Shown: positions 8,924 to 16,132 of the stretch, in pieces | Numbering within the stretch: position 1 is the stretch's first letter | Layout: each line of letters opens with the position of its first letter | Program-made: the position numbers and the translations under genes | Notes under the pieces: model-generated | What the model was told of the DNA's origin: nothing | The model's input: only the letters and a program-made list of their open reading frames with translations | The model's database searches: none | DNA from: a bacterium | GTDB taxonomy: Bacteria > Chloroflexota > Dormibacteria > UBA8260 > Bog-877 | Direction of reading: 5' to 3' | Assembly (NCBI GenBank): GCA_021817025.1 | Contig: JAKAWF010000054.1 | Span: 1 to 16,206 of the forward strand | DNA: 16,206 bases

Positions 8924-9799
8924 GGAGCGGCCCGCGTCACCGACATGGCCCAAGCGGCCAGAAGAGACCGCGCCACGATCCCGGTTGGCGGCACCGGCAC
9001 ACCGGTGAGAGTCCGGGAGGTGGAGCGGTCGGGGCGCTTGACCAGGGCGGGCAGAGGGCGGTGCCTCACCCAGCCCACATGAGCTGCGGTTGCCGGATGG
9101 TGGCTCAGTGAGGGTTGGGCGAGTGGAGGGGCGCACCGGGGGGCACCCCTGGCCGTATGGAGTCGTCGCCTCCAGGCAAGCTGGCGCTCAGCGACGCTCC
9201 GTGCCCATTCCGGCTGGGGCCATGGATCCAAACACAGCTCGTACCCAGCCCAGTGCCCTCGGACACCGAGGGGATGCTGCTCCTTCGCGACCCGGCCACC
9301 CGCCCCTCCGTCGCCGATCCCGCCCGCCTGCGGAATCGGGAACAGCCGCCGATGCGGTGACCGATGATCGCCACCGACTGCTCCGCGCTCACTGGGCTCC
9401 GCCGGTCCGCCGACCCTGGCGGGCGACCTGCTGGAGCGGTTCCCTGCCGCTCATCATCCGACCGATCCCGCTCCCGAGTTCAAGCCGGCAGCTGGCGCCG
9501 TGACGCGGGAGATCCTCGCCCTCGGCCAGCGCCGGACCGTGGTGGGTCTGGGCCCTGAGGCTTCGAGGTGGGGACGCCGGCAACCGGTCAGGGCCTGGCG
9601 GCCCTCCCGGCGGGGGAGCCCAAGACCTTGCGAGCCGCGATTGGCAGGCTGGTCGCTCAGTAGTCTCTGGCGCCGGCGCATCCACTCCGATCGGTCCCCA
9701 GCGTCCGGGCTCCCGTCCGGATCACTCCGAGTGCCGTCCCGTCCCCCGCCCGACCAGGACGAGCCGCCGCATCGGGCCCACTTTGGTCCCGGTTTGCCC
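8924..9799. other. Roughly 875-bp interval without a supported gene, upstream of the cobalamin riboswitch
   Basis: Both strands give only low-quality high-GC frames, such as 9090-9503 and 9115-9360 on the plus strand. None has a domain or a good ribosome-binding site. A 15-nt segment at 9002-9016 (CCGGTGAGAGTCCGG) resembles part of a cobalamin riboswitch core, but the rest of that fold is absent here. I see no tRNA, repeat array or transposase. Confidence 0.4.
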
Positions 9800-9805
9800 T
9801 AATAT
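9800..9805 (+). promoter_or_regulatory. Possible -10 element for the cobalamin-uptake operon
   Basis: TAATAT lies in a small AT-rich patch 23 bp before the riboswitch P1 stem, the right distance for a transcript starting near 9812. No convincing -35 hexamer lies 16-19 bp upstream, so only the -10 is proposed. Confidence 0.3.
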
Positions 9806-9827
9806 TGCCGACACAACCGAATAGCCC

Positions 9828-9980
9828 CTCGGGCGAATGGGAATCCGGTGCGGGAGCAAGTCCCAAATCCGGAGCTGTCGCGCAACTGTGAGCGGGGAGT
9901 CCAAGCCAGAAGGCCACCGGGAACGTTCCTGGGAAGGCGGCACCTGGACATCGATCCGCAAGCCAGGAGACCGGCCCGAG
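9828..9980 (+). ncRNA. Cobalamin (adenosylcobalamin-type) riboswitch aptamer
   Basis: The sequence has the ordered core of this class. It contains AATGGGAATCCGGTG (9837-9850), a TCCGGAGCTGTCGCGCAACTG run beginning at 9868, GCCAGAAGGCCAC near 9905, GGGAA elements at 9919 and 9931, and the B12 box GCAAGCCAGGAGACCGGCC (9958-9976). P1 closes perfectly: CTCGGGC at 9828-9834 with GCCCGAG at 9974-9980. The aptamer binds a cobalamin and lowers expression of the downstream genes when the vitamin is plentiful. It sits 100 nt before the ATG of the DUF4430 lipoprotein gene, leaving room for the expression platform described separately. Which cobalamin form it prefers cannot be read with certainty from the sequence. 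Confidence 0.95.
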
Positions 9981-10017
9981 CGGGTATCGCGTACCCCCGC
10001 GCGCAACGGGAAGGATG

Positions 10018-10073
10018 GCCTCTGGCGGCAGGCCCAGTTCTGGCGTGGGGGCCAATTGATGCCGCCGGGAGGT
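10018..10073 (+). promoter_or_regulatory. Riboswitch expression platform: hairpin burying the Shine-Dalgarno
   Basis: GGCGGCA (10024-10030) pairs perfectly with TGCCGCC (10060-10066). The helix continues, with G-U pairs and a bulged A, by pairing GCCTCT (10018-10023) against the GGGAGG Shine-Dalgarno (10067-10072) and T10073. The ATG is at 10081. The hairpin would block ribosome access, which points to translational control by the riboswitch. A second small hairpin, GGGTA/TACCC (9982-9996), lies between it and the aptamer and could be the switching element. Confidence 0.6.
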
Positions 10074-10080
10074 GGAGACG

Positions 10081-10560
10081 ATGAGATCGTCTCAATGGGC
10101 CAGCGCGATTCTGGCCCCGGTGTTCCTGGCGGCGCTGGTGGCCGGGTGCGGCAGTGCCGCCACCGCGAGTGGAGGTGGCGGCCAGCAGTGCGGCAGCGGC
10201 CACCGGGTGGAGGTGGTGGTCGAACTGGCCAGCAAGAAGGTGGTGGACAGCTGTGTCTCCTTCGCGGCGGCCGAGATTCCCGCGGAGACCGCGATGAAGC
10301 GCAGCGGAATCGAGTTTGCCACCAAGCACTTCAGCTTCGGTGATGCCATCTGCCAGATCGACCACGAGCCCAGCGCCTACACCCACTGCTTTGCTTCCGG
10401 TCAACCCTACTGGGCGCTCTTCACATGGAGTGGCGAGGGACCGTGGAAGGTGGCTCAGACGGGGGTCTCGGGCATCCAGCTCCGACCCGGGGACGCGCTC
10501 GGCTGGCACTTTGGAACCGGCAGCCCGGCCGCTCCACCCAAGCCGCCTCAGGACAAGTAA
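10081..10560 (+). CDS. DUF4430 (transcobalamin-like) lipoprotein, probable corrinoid-binding
   Basis: The 159-residue precursor has a lipoprotein signal: hydrophobic ILAPVFLAAL, then lipobox LVAGC with lipidation at Cys23, and a Gly/Ser linker. The mature domain has four Cys, likely two disulfides, and the DUF4430 end pattern: CQID, CFASGQPYWALFTWSG, VSGIQLRPGDALGWHFG. This fold is shared with the C-terminal domain of intrinsic factor and transcobalamin. It would lie outside the membrane and capture cobalamin for the ECF transporter encoded directly downstream. The riboswitch upstream strengthens the B12 assignment; binding itself is inferred. ATG 10081 has GGGAGG at 10067-10072; a GTG at 10072 in the same frame lies within the Shine-Dalgarno and is rejected. 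Confidence 0.85.
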   Translation: MRSSQWASAILAPVFLAALVAGCGSAATASGGGGQQCGSGHRVEVVVELASKKVVDSCVSFAAAEIPAETAMKRSGIEFATKHFSFGDAICQIDHEPSAYTHCFASGQPYWALFTWSGEGPWKVAQTGVSGIQLRPGDALGWHFGTGSPAAPPKPPQDK

Positions 10561-10569
10561 GCGGCGGCT

Positions 10570-11385
10570 GTGAACGCCCGGGCGCTCCTGCTCTGGACGG
10601 GCGCCATCCTCCTGCTGTCACTGGGGACGGAGGATCCCGTGTATCGGGTGGTCACCCTGCTGGCAGGCCTTGCGGTGGTGCTCACCCGGCGGCGTCCGGG
10701 CGTTCGAATCGGACCGGTTATGGCCTGGATCGGCCTGGCCTGTGTCGGCGGGATCGCACTCAACTTCCTGCTCAGCCACACCGGGCAGGACGTGGTCTGG
10801 CAGCTGCCGGGGTGGTTGCCGGCCATCGGCGGCACGCTCACCTTGGAAGCGGCGGTTTACGGCGTCGATGTGGCCCTGGGCCTGGGCGCCTGTCTCCTGG
10901 CGGGCAGCTCCCTGGCCCTGGTGGTCGACTCGCAGCAGCTGATCGACGCACTCCCCGGCTTCCTCCACCGCACCGGCGCCGCGCTGGGGTCCGCGATCAC
11001 CCTGGGACCGCGCCTGGGGCAGAGCTTCACCACTGTCCGGGAAGCTCAGGCGATGCGCGGCTGGCGTCCGCGGGGACCTCGCTCCTGGCGCGCGGTGGCC
11101 GTGCCGGCGGTGCTGACGGCGATCGAGGGCTCGGTCCTGCTGGCGGAGGCGATGGACGCGCGCGGCTTCGGCTCCGGCGTTCGCACCAAGGTCTGGGCCC
11201 CGGCCTGGACGCGACGGGATCTGGCCGACGCCACCTCCGCAGCACTCGCCATCGCCATCTTCGCCACCTCCCTGGTGCTGGGGAGGGTCGGGGGCTGGCA
11301 GCCGTACCCCAGCCTTCAGCTGCCCGCGGTGGATTGGCTGCCGCTGCTGGGCTGCCTGCTGCTGCTCCTGCCGGCGGTGTGGTAG
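10570..11385 (+). CDS. ecfT: ECF transporter transmembrane coupling protein EcfT
   Basis: The 271-residue membrane protein has about five or six hydrophobic helices and the two EcfT coupling motifs that dock into the ATPases. They are seen as REAQAMRGWRPRG (about residues 156-168) and AEAMDARGFGSG (about 194-205). The second is the canonical Ala-Arg-Gly; in the first Met replaces Ala before Arg-Gly. EcfT links the substrate-binding S component to the ATPase pair and drives its toppling. The GTG start at 10570 lies 9 nt after the lipoprotein stop with only a weak ribosome-binding site, suggesting coupled translation. The stop is directly followed by the ATG of the ATPase gene. Confidence 0.88.
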   Translation: MNARALLLWTGAILLLSLGTEDPVYRVVTLLAGLAVVLTRRRPGVRIGPVMAWIGLACVGGIALNFLLSHTGQDVVWQLPGWLPAIGGTLTLEAAVYGVDVALGLGACLLAGSSLALVVDSQQLIDALPGFLHRTGAALGSAITLGPRLGQSFTTVREAQAMRGWRPRGPRSWRAVAVPAVLTAIEGSVLLAEAMDARGFGSGVRTKVWAPAWTRRDLADATSAALAIAIFATSLVLGRVGGWQPYPSLQLPAVDWLPLLGCLLLLLPAVW

Positions 11386-12723
11386 ATGAGATCAAAGGCT
11401 CGCTTCGACGCGTTCAGCTACTGCTATCCCGGGACCGGGGCCCCCGCGCTCGATGAGATCGAGCTGGTGATTTCAGAGGGACTCACGATCCTCACCGGAC
11501 CCTCGGGGAGTGGCAAGACGACCTTGCTGCGCTGCCTGGACGGACTGGTCCCGCACTTCCACGGTGGCGAGGCGCGCGGTCGGGTCGAGATCCTGGGCAA
11601 GGACCTCAGAGAGCTGACTCCCAGGCGGTTGGCGCGAGACGTGGCCCTGGTCTTCCAGGAGCCGGAGGCGCAGATGGTGCTGCCGGTGGTCGACCAGGAG
11701 GTCGCCTTCGGGCCCGCCAATCTGGGCCTTCCGGCGGCGGTGGTGCGGGAACGGGTCCAGCGCGCATTGGCGGCCATGGGCATCCTCCACCTGGCGCGGC
11801 GCCGGGTGGCCACCCTCTCCGGGGGTGAACGCCAGCGGGTGGCTCTGGCCGGGGCGCTGGCGATGGATCCGCAACTCTTGGTCTTGGACGAACCCACGTC
11901 GCAACTCGACGACGACGGCGCCCTGGCGTTGCGTCAGCAGCTGGAGCGGCTGGTCGAGGAGGGGATGTCGGTGGTGGTCGCGGACCACCGGCCCCAACGC
12001 CTCCCAGATCGCGGGGTTCAGCGCGTGCTGCTCAGGGCCGGCCGGCCACAGGCGCTCGAGCCCGCCCCGACCTGGCCCATCCGCCAGAGGGGATCGGGAG
12101 CCTGGGGGGGGCTGGCCTGGGAGGCAAGCTCCCTCACCGTGGGGCACGGCTCGCCGGTGCTTGACGGCGTCTGCCTGCAGTGTCACCGGGGAGAGGTGCT
12201 GGCCGTGACCGGGCCCAACGGCGCCGGCAAGACCACCCTCCTCAGGACTCTGGCCGGTCTCCTGAAACCGATCTCGGGGGAACTCCACCGAGAACCGGGC
12301 AGGCGCGCCTATCTCCCGCAGGACCCGGGGGCCCTGCTCCACCAGTCGACGGTGCTGGCTGAGATAGAGCAGACCATCCGCTGGATGCGGCTCGACTGCT
12401 CCCCGCTGGAGGTGCTGTCCCAGTTCGGCCTCTGTGACCTGGCCGGCCGTGACCCGCGCGACCTGAGCACCGGCCAGCGGCAGCGGGCGGCGCTCGCCGC
12501 CATCCTGGTGGGCAGCCCGGACATGGTGTTCTTGGACGAGCCAACCAGGGCGGCGGACCAGAGCTCGCGGGAGGCGCTCTTCCTGGCGGTGGAGCAGCTT
12601 GCGAGTCGGGGAGCGGCGGTGCTGGTGGCCACCAGCGACCGCGAGTTCGCGGAGCAGGTGGGGGACGTGGTGGTGGTGGCGGAGCGGGGACGGCTGCGGC
12701 CGCGAGCTCCGGTACCGGCATGA
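11386..12723 (+). CDS. Fused double ABC ATPase of an ECF transporter (EcfA-EcfA')
   Basis: The 445-residue protein holds two ATPase domains. Domain 1 has Walker A GPSGSGKT (38-45), Q-loop Gln91, signature LSGGERQ (144-150), Walker B LLVLDEP (164-170) and H-loop His201. Domain 2 has Walker A GPNGAGKT (276-283), Q-loop Gln312, signature LSTGQRQ (360-366) and Walker B VFLDEP (381-386). Its expected H-loop (VTHD in relatives) reads ATSD, with Ser417 replacing the switch histidine. The pair powers cobalamin uptake through EcfT at the inner face of the membrane. The gene starts at the base after the EcfT stop and overlaps the S-component start by four bases (ATGA at 12720). Fused ECF ATPases are known in actinobacteria-like lineages. 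Confidence 0.92.
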   Translation: MRSKARFDAFSYCYPGTGAPALDEIELVISEGLTILTGPSGSGKTTLLRCLDGLVPHFHGGEARGRVEILGKDLRELTPRRLARDVALVFQEPEAQMVLPVVDQEVAFGPANLGLPAAVVRERVQRALAAMGILHLARRRVATLSGGERQRVALAGALAMDPQLLVLDEPTSQLDDDGALALRQQLERLVEEGMSVVVADHRPQRLPDRGVQRVLLRAGRPQALEPAPTWPIRQRGSGAWGGLAWEASSLTVGHGSPVLDGVCLQCHRGEVLAVTGPNGAGKTTLLRTLAGLLKPISGELHREPGRRAYLPQDPGALLHQSTVLAEIEQTIRWMRLDCSPLEVLSQFGLCDLAGRDPRDLSTGQRQRAALAAILVGSPDMVFLDEPTRAADQSSREALFLAVEQLASRGAAVLVATSDREFAEQVGDVVVVAERGRLRPRAPVPA

Positions 12724-13571
12724 TCCTGCTGCTCATGAGCCTCTTGGGAATGGGGCTCTTCCTCTGGCCCTTCGCGGGGCTCGGGCTGCCCTCCAGCACT
12801 CCCGCCTTGGCGATTGGCCTGGGCGCGGCACTGGCCCTGCTGGCCTTCGAGGTCGGCACCCGCCGTCTGGATTCGCGCTCGCTCTCGCTGCTGGCGGCAC
12901 TCAGTGCCGCCGACGCCGCCTTGCGGGCCGCGCTGGTGACCGGGATCGGGGGGTTCAGCCCCATCTTCCTCCTGGTCCTCTGCGCTGGCTACGCGCTCGG
13001 TCCCAGCTTCGGATTCCTGGTGGGCGCTGGCTCCTTGCTGACGTCGGCGCTGGCCACCGGCGGACTCGGCCCCTGGGTCCCCTACCAGCTCTTCGCCCTG
13101 GGCTGGGTCGGGCTGGTGGCGGGCTGGGCGGGGAGGATGCGGGCCGGCAGCCGTCCAACCCGCGTGGATGTGGTGCTCCTGGCGGTGGTCGGGGTCGCGA
13201 CCGGCTTTGGCTTTGGGGCGGTCATGGACGTCTGGAACTGGACCTTCTTCGCGGGCTCCCCCGGGCTGGGCTGGCACCCTGGTTTGGGCCCCCTGAACGC
13301 CCTGCAGAGATTCGCCCGCTACTATCTGGTGACCTCGCTCGGCTATGACTCCTTTCGGGCCGCCGGCAACGCCCTCATGGTCCTGCTGCTGGGGCTGCCC
13401 ATCCTGGCCGGACTGCACCGGATCGGGCGCCGCTTCCAGCTCCGGTGGCCGATCGGGGAGCGGGTGGGTTCGTCAGCGCAGCCGCCGGACCACGTAGCTG
13501 CCGGCGATCTTGTCGTGCCAGCCCTGGCGGTGGGCGTCCACGGCGGCCCAGCCGAAGCCCACGAAGCATGA
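12720..13571 (+). CDS. ECF transporter S component, CblT-like (predicted cobalamin-specific)
   Basis: The 283-residue protein is very hydrophobic, with about six or seven helices. It has the S-component core seen as GIGGFSPIFLLVLCAGYALG (about residues 75-94) and FLVGAGSLLTSALATGGLGP, then PYQLFALGWVGLVAG and a late ARYYLVTSLGYDSFRAAGNA segment. This pattern is what I associate with CblT-type S components assigned to cobalamin by genomic context. The riboswitch and DUF4430 partner agree with that. The start ATG overlaps the ATPase stop. The last 33 codons run antisense over the end of the RDD gene and look non-conserved (VGSSAQPPDHVAAGD onward). Substrate specificity is inferred, not shown. 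Confidence 0.82.
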   Translation: MILLLMSLLGMGLFLWPFAGLGLPSSTPALAIGLGAALALLAFEVGTRRLDSRSLSLLAALSAADAALRAALVTGIGGFSPIFLLVLCAGYALGPSFGFLVGAGSLLTSALATGGLGPWVPYQLFALGWVGLVAGWAGRMRAGSRPTRVDVVLLAVVGVATGFGFGAVMDVWNWTFFAGSPGLGWHPGLGPLNALQRFARYYLVTSLGYDSFRAAGNALMVLLLGLPILAGLHRIGRRFQLRWPIGERVGSSAQPPDHVAAGDLVVPALAVGVHGGPAEAHEA

Positions 13572-14165: not shown

Positions 14166-14771
14166 TCAGCCGCCGGGCGTCGCTGCGGAGGGCCCCACCG
14201 GCTCTTGGTGCAAGTGCTCCCATTCACGGCGCAGAAGTCCCATGTAGAGGAGGTCCGAGGCGTGGCCGTCCCGCAGCACGCGCTCACGCAGCCGTCCCTC
14301 CTCCTGGAAACCCAACTTGCGGTACAGGGAGATGGCGGGCTCATTGCCGGCGATGACATCCAGGCTCAACCGGTGCAGGCAGAGCTCATGGAATGCGTAA
14401 CGCAGCGCCATCGAGACCGCCTCCAGGCCGTAGCCGCGACCGCGATCGGTAGCTTCGCCCAGGCCGACTGCCACCCAGCCGTGACGGTTGGCCCACTCGA
14501 TCCCGCAAACCGCGACGAAACCAACCAGCCGATCGTCGTCGACGGTGCGGATGCGGAACTCAAAGTTGTCCGGGTCTGACCCCGCCGCCTCGTCCCGCTC
14601 GCGAAAGTGGTCGGCCGTCCGCGGGCGAGGCGCGTCGGTGTCGGCCCGGCGCCGGTAGACGCCATCCTCGCTCCAGCGGCTGAGGACCTCGGCATCCTCG
14701 GCACGGGGAGCGCAGAGGCGGACCAACTGGCCCCGGAAGAGATCTGTGGACAAACTTGCCTCCGAGAGCAT
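14166..14771 (-). CDS. GNAT-family acetyltransferase, RimJ/RimL/SpeG-like
   Basis: From ATG 14771 the protein has 201 residues. It shows the acetyl-CoA binding motif DRGRGYGLEAV (109-119), preceded by the VAVGLGEATD strand. The hallmark NEPAISLYRKLGFQEEGRLRE (143-163) follows, typical of enzymes acetylating protein N-termini or small amines. The substrate cannot be read from the sequence. The frame stays open upstream to 14945, but those residues are Arg/Gly-rich and non-conserved. Another ATG at 14819 is possible; neither ATG has a strong ribosome-binding site. The gene is followed 6 nt later by the DUF1707-RDD gene and is divergent from the Eis-like gene. Confidence 0.85.
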   Translation of the reverse strand: MLSEASLSTDLFRGQLVRLCAPRAEDAEVLSRWSEDGVYRRRADTDAPRPRTADHFRERDEAAGSDPDNFEFRIRTVDDDRLVGFVAVCGIEWANRHGWVAVGLGEATDRGRGYGLEAVSMALRYAFHELCLHRLSLDVIAGNEPAISLYRKLGFQEEGRLRERVLRDGHASDLLYMGLLRREWEHLHQEPVGPSAATPGG

Positions 14772-16132
14772 CCGGCGCTGACGAGCTCGTCGAGTATGCC
14801 AGACCTCCAACCAGACCATTCCGGCTCGCTCGCCAGTCCCAGCCCGCGCCCGGGCGGGGAGTCCCCGACCCTTGCCACCTCGGCCACGGCCAACCCAGCC
14901 GAACCAGGAGGTATCATCCGCCGACGCCAGTCGAGTTCCGGGCAATCCGCCCGGACGAGCTCCCGGAGTTCGCCACCGTCAACCTCACCGCCTTCGGGGC
15001 GCATGTCGATCCCTGGCACGAGAGGTGGTTCCAGCAGCGGGTGCGGGCGGAGGGCACGGTCGCGGCATTCGCGGATGGGCGGATGGTGGGCAGCTCGTTG
15101 GCTCTCCCAATCGAGATCGCCCTCCCGGGAGCCGTGGTCGCCGCTGCGGGCGTGACCGGCATTGGGGTGCTGCCAACCCACCGGCGCCGCGGCCTGCTCC
15201 GCGAGATGATGACCCGGCAGCTGCTGGCGGCCCGCCAGAGAGGTCTGGCCCTGGCCGCCTTGTGGGCCTCGGAGGGAGGCATCTACTCGCGGTTCGGCTT
15301 CGGGCCGGCCGCCCGTTCCTGGCGAATAGCGCTCGAGCATCCGCGGGCGACGCTGCTTGCCACGGCGGTGGCCGGGAGCACGCGGCTGGTGGATCGCGAG
15401 CAGGCGCTGCAGCTGCTGCCTCAGCTGTATCAGCGATTGATGGAGTCGCGGCCCGGAGTCGTTGGCCGCGACCGGTTCGCCTGGGAGCTAGCCCTCTCCG
15501 AGGACGACCCGCACCTGCCCCGGGACGAAGCCAGACTCTTCCTGGCGGTCCACCGGGGTAGCCGGGGCGATGACGGCTATCTGGTCTACCGGGTCCGCCG
15601 GGGATGGGCGGACGTTGGGCCCCGGGCCACCCTGGTGATAAGGGAGATGGTGGCGCTCGACCCGGGAGCGGCGGCGGACCTCTGGCGCTATTGTCTGGAG
15701 GTCGACCTCGTGCACCGGGTGGAGGCCTCCGGCTACGGCTCCCGGCCCCTCGACGACCCCATCCTCTGGTTGGCGGCGGACCCTCAGGCCATGGAGGTCG
15801 CTCAGGTGACGACCGTATGGGCCAGGATTCTGGACGCGCCGGCGGTCCTGACCGCCCGCCGATACCAGGGCGATGGTGACCTCACCCTCCGGGTGCTGGA
15901 CCCGCTGGAGCCTCTGGCCGAGGGCTGTTACCACCTTCATGTGAAGGACGGGCTCGGGGAATGCCGGCGAACTGAGTCGGAGCCAGATCTGATCCTCGGC
16001 GTCTCCGAGCTCAGCTCAGCGTGCCTCGGCCAGCGGTGCCTCGCCCAACTGGCAGGGGCTCGGCGGGTCCAGGCGGTTTCCCCGGGGGCGGCGCGGAGGG
16101 TTGCGAACAGTTGCTCGTACGATGCGGTATAG
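14756..16132 (+). CDS. Eis-like GNAT N-acetyltransferase with unclear start and altered C-terminus
   Basis: The protein has the Eis layout of two GNAT folds plus an SCP2-like C-terminal domain. Key motifs are TGIGVLPTHRRRGLLREMM (acetyl-CoA pyrophosphate loop), ALWASEGGIYSRFGFGPA, and a late section with ARILDAPAVLTARRY and DLTLRVLDPLEPLAEGCYHL. Eis-type enzymes acetylate amines such as aminoglycosides and protein lysines; the substrate here is unknown. TTG 14756 is the only canonical in-frame start before the conserved region, yet it overlaps the divergent gene and adds about 58 non-conserved residues. Homology begins at VEFRAIRPDEL (14930). A strong AGGAGG (14906-14911) precedes it, followed by ACG at 14924 as a possible start. 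The end (RRVANSCSYDAV) does not resemble the usual Eis terminus. Confidence 0.8.
   Translation: MPPRASGADELVEYARPPTRPFRLARQSQPAPGRGVPDPCHLGHGQPSRTRRYHPPTPVEFRAIRPDELPEFATVNLTAFGAHVDPWHERWFQQRVRAEGTVAAFADGRMVGSSLALPIEIALPGAVVAAAGVTGIGVLPTHRRRGLLREMMTRQLLAARQRGLALAALWASEGGIYSRFGFGPAARSWRIALEHPRATLLATAVAGSTRLVDREQALQLLPQLYQRLMESRPGVVGRDRFAWELALSEDDPHLPRDEARLFLAVHRGSRGDDGYLVYRVRRGWADVGPRATLVIREMVALDPGAAADLWRYCLEVDLVHRVEASGYGSRPLDDPILWLAADPQAMEVAQVTTVWARILDAPAVLTARRYQGDGDLTLRVLDPLEPLAEGCYHLHVKDGLGECRRTESEPDLILGVSELSSACLGQRCLAQLAGARRVQAVSPGAARRVANSCSYDAV

Follow-up and report, generated by a model that had tools for sequence, protein, structure and literature searches.

A B12 riboswitch-controlled operon pairing an ECF transporter with a transcobalamin β-domain-like lipoprotein: a probable corrinoid salvage system in Chloroflexota

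Introduction

BtuFCD carries out import of vitamin B12 driven by an ATP-binding cassette (ABC) transporter and uses a protein located outside the membrane, and energy-coupling factor (ECF) transporters are generally described as needing no external binding protein. Here, we analyze a 16,206-nt stretch of DNA from a bacterium of the phylum Chloroflexota, referred to as the window, in which a cobalamin riboswitch is followed by genes for a small lipoprotein and a complete ECF transporter. We conclude that this is probably a riboswitch-controlled corrinoid (B12) salvage operon that combines an ECF transporter with a surface β-domain lipoprotein.

The closest described systems resemble the window operon in part. 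ECF-CbrT of Lactobacillus delbrueckii mediates uptake of cobalamin and cobinamide, as described in the available portion of PMC5997447, which also covers the role of BtuF in B12 import. The window operon shares its ECF architecture and, as we interpret it, its cargo with ECF-CbrT (6fnp), which is the best solved match of a profile of the window S component; however, the match is distant (best domain E value 0.1), and in the window the operon encodes its own ECF module, the ATPase is fused, and a riboswitch and a lipoprotein are present in addition. With BtuFCD it would share ABC-driven B12 import involving an outside protein, but FecCD, the BtuC-type permease domain, is absent from the nine window proteins scanned, and just one of 17 related genomes has it above the cut-off.

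In a proteomics study of L. rhamnosus, the DUF4430 protein LGG_02295 (LRHMDP2_2713), whose gene adjoins one for a B12-dependent ribonucleotide reductase, is annotated as "Additional lipoprotein component of putative cobalamin ECF transporter" (accessible part of PMC9963975). An annotation in Lacticaseibacillus had therefore already linked a DUF4430 lipoprotein to a cobalamin ECF transporter, a connection that an earlier reading of the window from its sequence alone did not mention. Both are small lipoproteins assigned to such a transporter, LGG_02295 by annotation; the window protein differs in failing the DUF4430 model PF14478 and in standing first behind the riboswitch, a distinction that is drawn from the description of LGG_02295 and not from its sequence. 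The animal carriers transcobalamin, intrinsic factor, and haptocorrin hold an α/α toroid and a β domain in one secreted chain, whereas the window protein consists of the β part only and has a lipobox. Short DUF4430-only relatives of transcobalamin are described from fish in the part of PMC4350170 that was available. In the literature surveyed, which mostly did not include subscription papers and preprints, neither a bacterial pairing of toroid and DUF4430 proteins nor binding measurements on a DUF4430-ECF system came up. In our judgement, the window operon varies a known kind, and the α/β pair presented below is the bolder reading.

The Operon and Its ECF Module

All operon features lie on the forward strand. 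The aptamer of the cobalamin riboswitch (RF00174) spans positions 9767–9993 and is complete, as cmscan aligned 189 of 189 model positions with 99.7 bits (E value 2.5e-24) against a gathering score of 31.5; its 5′ end is 61 nt upstream of position 9828, where the sequence-only reading had begun the element. Four genes follow with spacings of 9, 0, and −4 nt. The lipoprotein gene (10081–10560, 159 aa, ATG start; an in-frame GTG at 10072 is an alternative upstream start) is followed by that for EcfT, the transmembrane coupling protein (10570–11385, GTG start), which matches PF02361 (CbiQ) with 27 bits at a cut-off of 25 and TIGR02454 with an E value of 0.0076, far under the cut-off of that model. 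The third gene encodes a fused EcfA-EcfA′ ATPase of 445 aa (11386–12723) with two PF00005 stretches (E value 2.1e-53) that also exceeds the cut-off of TIGR01166 (cbiO), and the fourth a 283-aa S component (12720–13571). One operon thus encodes every part of a dedicated ECF module (coupling protein, both ATPase domains, and S component), and the same set is found in relatives.

The S component stays under the Pfam cut-offs (PF12822, 19.4 vs. 30.7 bits; PF07155, 18.4 vs. 26.7 bits) and matches no NCBIfam model, and many of its relatives among the best 120 of 535 matches carry a precomputed PF12822 assignment. When its profile was compared with solved structures, CbrT (6fnp_A) ranked first (E value 2.6e-4), which is suggestive of a B12 cargo at the sequence level and not decisive. 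The sequence-only reading had proposed a cobalamin riboswitch, these four genes in the same place and with the same gaps, and no BtuF/BtuCD-type gene, all of which is borne out, the last by the lack of an FecCD match among the nine window proteins scanned. Its assignment of the S component to the cobalamin type would fit the CbrT match but is not given by any Pfam or NCBIfam model; no clear alignment with a non-cobalamin family was found among the solved structures.

The Lipoprotein and Its Predicted Fold

The lipoprotein has a signal peptide and a lipobox, LVAGC, at residues 19–23 (identified by eye) ending at Cys23, which is invariant in 25 aligned proteins including that of the window, and is by prediction membrane anchored. 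Its AlphaFold2 model (predicted local distance difference test score, 78.4) has the fold of the transcobalamin/intrinsic factor β domain over residues 39–148 (10195–10524), the range aligned in the structure comparison. The top 19 of 692 Foldseek matches are β domains of cobalamin carriers or 3u7z, as are the best rows obtained with VIA, and the Z score is 10.9 for the cobalamin-carrier-type fold and 5.3 for the next folds, at a sequence identity of 12–18% to the structurally matched chains. The entry 3u7z, which we take to be a DUF4430 protein, has the record title putative metal binding protein. The chain contains no α/α toroid.

Sequence searches with the lipoprotein family against Pfam and NCBIfam yielded nothing useful, and the best rows of its PDB search (E value 0.036), which belonged to the N-terminal region of a nitrite reductase, were discarded, as were the low-complexity tails and chance rows that alone matched a wider β profile. 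In the PDB, a profile built on five DUF4430 sequences retrieved no cobalamin carrier and missed 3u7z as well. One database protein (P0027), in which the lipoprotein N-terminus is joined to a piece of an ABC ATPase, is probably an artefact of assembly or reading frame.

Conservation of the Operon and Corrinoid Physiology of Related Genomes

In all 17 related loci that encode the lipoprotein, RF00174 lies directly upstream and the lipoprotein gene is the first behind it. EcfT and the ATPase are matched in all 17 and the S component in 14; of the other three, L010 and L014 end at a contig edge and L011 does not. The operon is therefore not a chance arrangement, as the same order recurs. Beyond the operon, phosphofructokinase and cupredoxin-like genes are kept in 10 of the 17 loci and RDD and GNAT genes in 12, although some of these neighborhoods are cut off by contig ends.

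The sequence-only reading had suggested surveying how often the lipoprotein occurs with B12 riboswitches, and the association holds in a wider set. A 27-sequence lipoprotein profile (window included; E value up to 0.01) was positive in 96 of 400 genomes from the GTDB phylum of genome G003. Because RF00174 is present in 349 of these genomes, it is the position of the riboswitch and not its presence that is informative. With 10 weak or duplicate rows left out, 92 of 102 lipoprotein rows were used, and for at least 75 of them a same-strand riboswitch lies no more than 6.5 kb upstream, a limit chosen after the rows were seen; the distance is within 400 nt in 24 cases, 400–3,000 nt in 45, and larger in 6. 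Among these 75, the riboswitch matches of G142, G195, G203, G327, and G380 are under the Rfam gathering score, and the lower bound leaves out coordinates for G060, G197, G272, and G292 and one of two each for G187 and G269. The Fisher p-value computed in this survey takes no account of kinship among the genomes. The S profile was positive in 101 of the 400 genomes, with S component and lipoprotein together in 83, the S component alone in 18, and the lipoprotein alone in 7 (six genomes with weak lipoprotein matches are not counted in this split); in 3 of those 18, a DUF4430 protein certified by Pfam stands in for the lipoprotein. The S component is encoded in 57 of 97 neighborhoods, and the set stays together while its order varies from lipoprotein-T-A-S to T-A-lipoprotein-S (L070) and lipoprotein-S-T-A (L069 and L109).

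CbiC, a corrin-ring synthesis enzyme, was matched in none of the 17 close genomes and in 7 of 14 control genomes, and a B12-binding domain was found in all 17 and in 12 controls. RF00174 is unique in 15 of the 17. At the sequence level, the close genomes look like corrinoid-dependent salvagers with this ECF system as their evident importer. FecCD exceeds the cut-off only in G011, a genome whose contig is labelled Acidimicrobiaceae and in which a second B12 riboswitch precedes a strong FecCD gene by about 1.1 kb (C24:4326-6471); either a BtuFCD locus or a mixed bin may account for this.

Proposed Mechanism and Its Alternatives

When corrinoid is scarce, the riboswitch would leave the operon on, probably at translation; this direction and level of control are what we infer. 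The cell would then make EcfT, fused EcfA-EcfA′, and the S component together with a β-fold lipoprotein anchored on the outside, which most likely binds corrinoid as the β domain does in animals and either raises its local concentration at the S component or hands it over. The S component would carry the corrinoid across the membrane at the expense of ATP used by the fused ATPase. Many relatives may complete the clamp with a secreted α/α toroid as its second half; the window lineage retains the β half only. A surface corrinoid receptor delivering to an ECF module had been put forward by the sequence-only reading, and the present analysis supports that proposal. By our judgement, and not by computation, import of a corrinoid by this operon is very likely and binding of a corrinoid by the lipoprotein is fairly likely, whereas we infer its transfer to the S component with the chances about evenly balanced. 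If this mechanism is right, a conserved, co-regulated surface binder would alter the view of ECF transporters for B12, and DUF4430-type proteins would gain a testable job in corrinoid capture.

Several observations weigh against this proposal. PF14478 is matched by neither the window lipoprotein nor its relatives (0 of 25 close proteins at E values up to 1; 0 of 46 wider members at E values up to 0.1), hhalign gives the family a probability of 16.6 (close set) or 67.7 (wide set) against certified DUF4430 proteins, and the certified proteins of genomes G074, G153, and G309 are missed by the lipoprotein profiles. The DUF4430 label of the sequence-only reading thus stands for the fold, that of the transcobalamin β domain, but not for Pfam membership. 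Within the phylum, PF14478 was positive in just 4 of the 301 genomes searched, so the model is blind to the window lipoprotein family. For the cargo, the best domain E value with CbrT is followed closely by folate S components at 0.11–0.13; one related locus (L011) has no S match beside the lipoprotein although its contig continues; and FecCD is a near miss in G014 (26.2 bits vs. a cut-off of 26.5). Salvage was judged from related genomes whose contigs are titled as metagenome-assembled genomes and not from the genome of the window itself.

The ECF transporter might import the corrinoid alone, with the lipoprotein as a non-binding accessory that serves docking, protection, or assembly. Substrate binding in ECF transporters is done by S components, according to the available portion of PMC5997447, and the fold-mate 3u7z carries its metal-binding title. 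Moreover, 15 of the 101 S-component genomes have no counted lipoprotein match and no PF14478 match (one of them, G279, has a weak lipoprotein match that was dropped, and the PF14478 search covered 301 genomes), so the lipoprotein may be dispensable. Yet the top structural matches are those of cobalamin carriers and 3u7z for a protein encoded behind a B12 riboswitch, and its gene comes first behind the switch without exception in the related loci, which makes a non-binding role unlikely. Import of cobalt, or of a precursor or base of the lower ligand such as cobinamide or dimethylbenzimidazole, in place of complete B12 seems rather improbable. It would agree with the cobalt-transporter names of the CbiQ and cbiO models matched by EcfT and the ATPase and with a riboswitch that reports corrinoid status and not cargo; the β-domain fold, by contrast, belongs to cobalamin carriers, and cobalt import for ring synthesis is unlikely because CbiC is absent from all 17 related genomes. 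Cobinamide stays compatible with our data, as ECF-CbrT takes it up too (PMC5997447, available portion).

That the likeness to transcobalamin is mere convergence on a small common fold, uninformative on B12, we consider highly improbable. The low identity to the matched chains would fit convergence, as would the failure of every sequence profile to reach PF14478 or a cobalamin carrier and the failure of the five-sequence DUF4430 profile to reach 3u7z or the carriers. The large gap in Z scores argues against convergence, as does the filling of the same operon slot in G074, G153, and G309 by lipoproteins that PF14478 certifies; furthermore, the lipoprotein profile picks up (E value 4e-4) a protein of G080 that PF14478 matches.

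A Toroid-Type Partner and Certified DUF4430 Loci

We return to the reading in which the lipoprotein binds a corrinoid. A second, toroid-type gene, which the sequence-only reading had not noted, lies near the lipoprotein gene in 61 of 97 loci; its profile was built from L049, L055, L059, and L077, which therefore match by construction. There is no match in the 17 close loci. An unlinked partner elsewhere in the close genomes was considered and rejected, as 16 of 17 gave partial matches only, read as ordinary cyclases; their coverage does not exceed about 135 of 366 positions, apart from 183 in a single gapped row, and most fall in open frames of 660–994 aa, with one of 300 aa.

Certified DUF4430 proteins occur in comparable loci. 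G309 and G074 have the order toroid, DUF4430 lipoprotein, EcfT, fused ATPase, and S component of the same family, and G153 has the order DUF4430 lipoprotein, EcfT, fused ATPase, and S component without a toroid on that contig. Shared operon slot, fold class, and hhalign probability would tie the window family to these proteins. Against the proposed role, RF00174 was not matched at these three loci, although the threshold was set permissively, and the B12 link is weaker there for that reason. G153 also encodes, on contig C31 (L127 3158-5131), a 658-residue open frame in which PF13243 and PF14478 both exceed their cut-offs and follow each other in the domain order of intrinsic factor.

A bolder reading, to which we give somewhat less than even chances, is that bacteria own a split intrinsic factor in which a secreted non-catalytic toroid and a separate β protein, both encoded in one operon under a B12 riboswitch, close around a corrinoid at the cell surface and pass it to the S component. 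The window would then hold a stripped form in which capture falls to the lipid-anchored β half alone, and the animal carriers would descend from, or have reinvented, a fused version like the toroid-DUF4430 protein of G153. Such loci would give the two-domain B12 carriers of animals a counterpart in bacteria and turn the origin of intrinsic factor and transcobalamin into a testable question.

Two further loci were observed. In G080 (C66; L120 947-1995), a 165-residue DUF4430 frame adjoins a DUF6580 membrane protein (PF20221, E value 6e-46), possibly another DUF4430-plus-membrane-protein pair. In G144 (C56; L095 3503-6969), a toroid-type frame containing a weak lipoprotein-profile match is followed by a β-type gene and an S component; this genome has no RF00174 match.

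Predicted Expression Platform and Neighboring Genes

A putative expression platform at 10031–10101, based on the fold of the window and on a consensus of the window with 16 of the 17 related loci, is closed by an outer pairing of 10031–10036 with 10096–10101 and holds a predicted helix that masks the Shine-Dalgarno site. A perfect hairpin (10075–10093) spans the start codon and extends into codons 2–5 of the lipoprotein gene; this RNA structure might explain the invariance of signal-peptide residues 3 and 4 across the 25 aligned proteins. In the predicted fold of the stretch from the aptamer to codon 7, start codon and Shine-Dalgarno site are both covered (z = −2.18; 4 of 200 shuffles equally stable), and the consensus fold has 17 pairs, 3 of them changed on both sides; the sequences are close relatives, and covariation is thin. 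These predictions point to action of the riboswitch at the level of translation.

At the other end of the operon, the S-component gene shares its final 99 nt (13473–13571) with an antisense RDD-type gene (14159–13473, reverse strand), and a similar overlap is seen in L001, L002, and L003. Farther downstream, at 14756–16132, the window encodes a GNAT-family protein over the cut-off of NCBIfam NF002367 (PRK01346 group, Eis-related by name), relatives of which are encoded downstream in several related loci.

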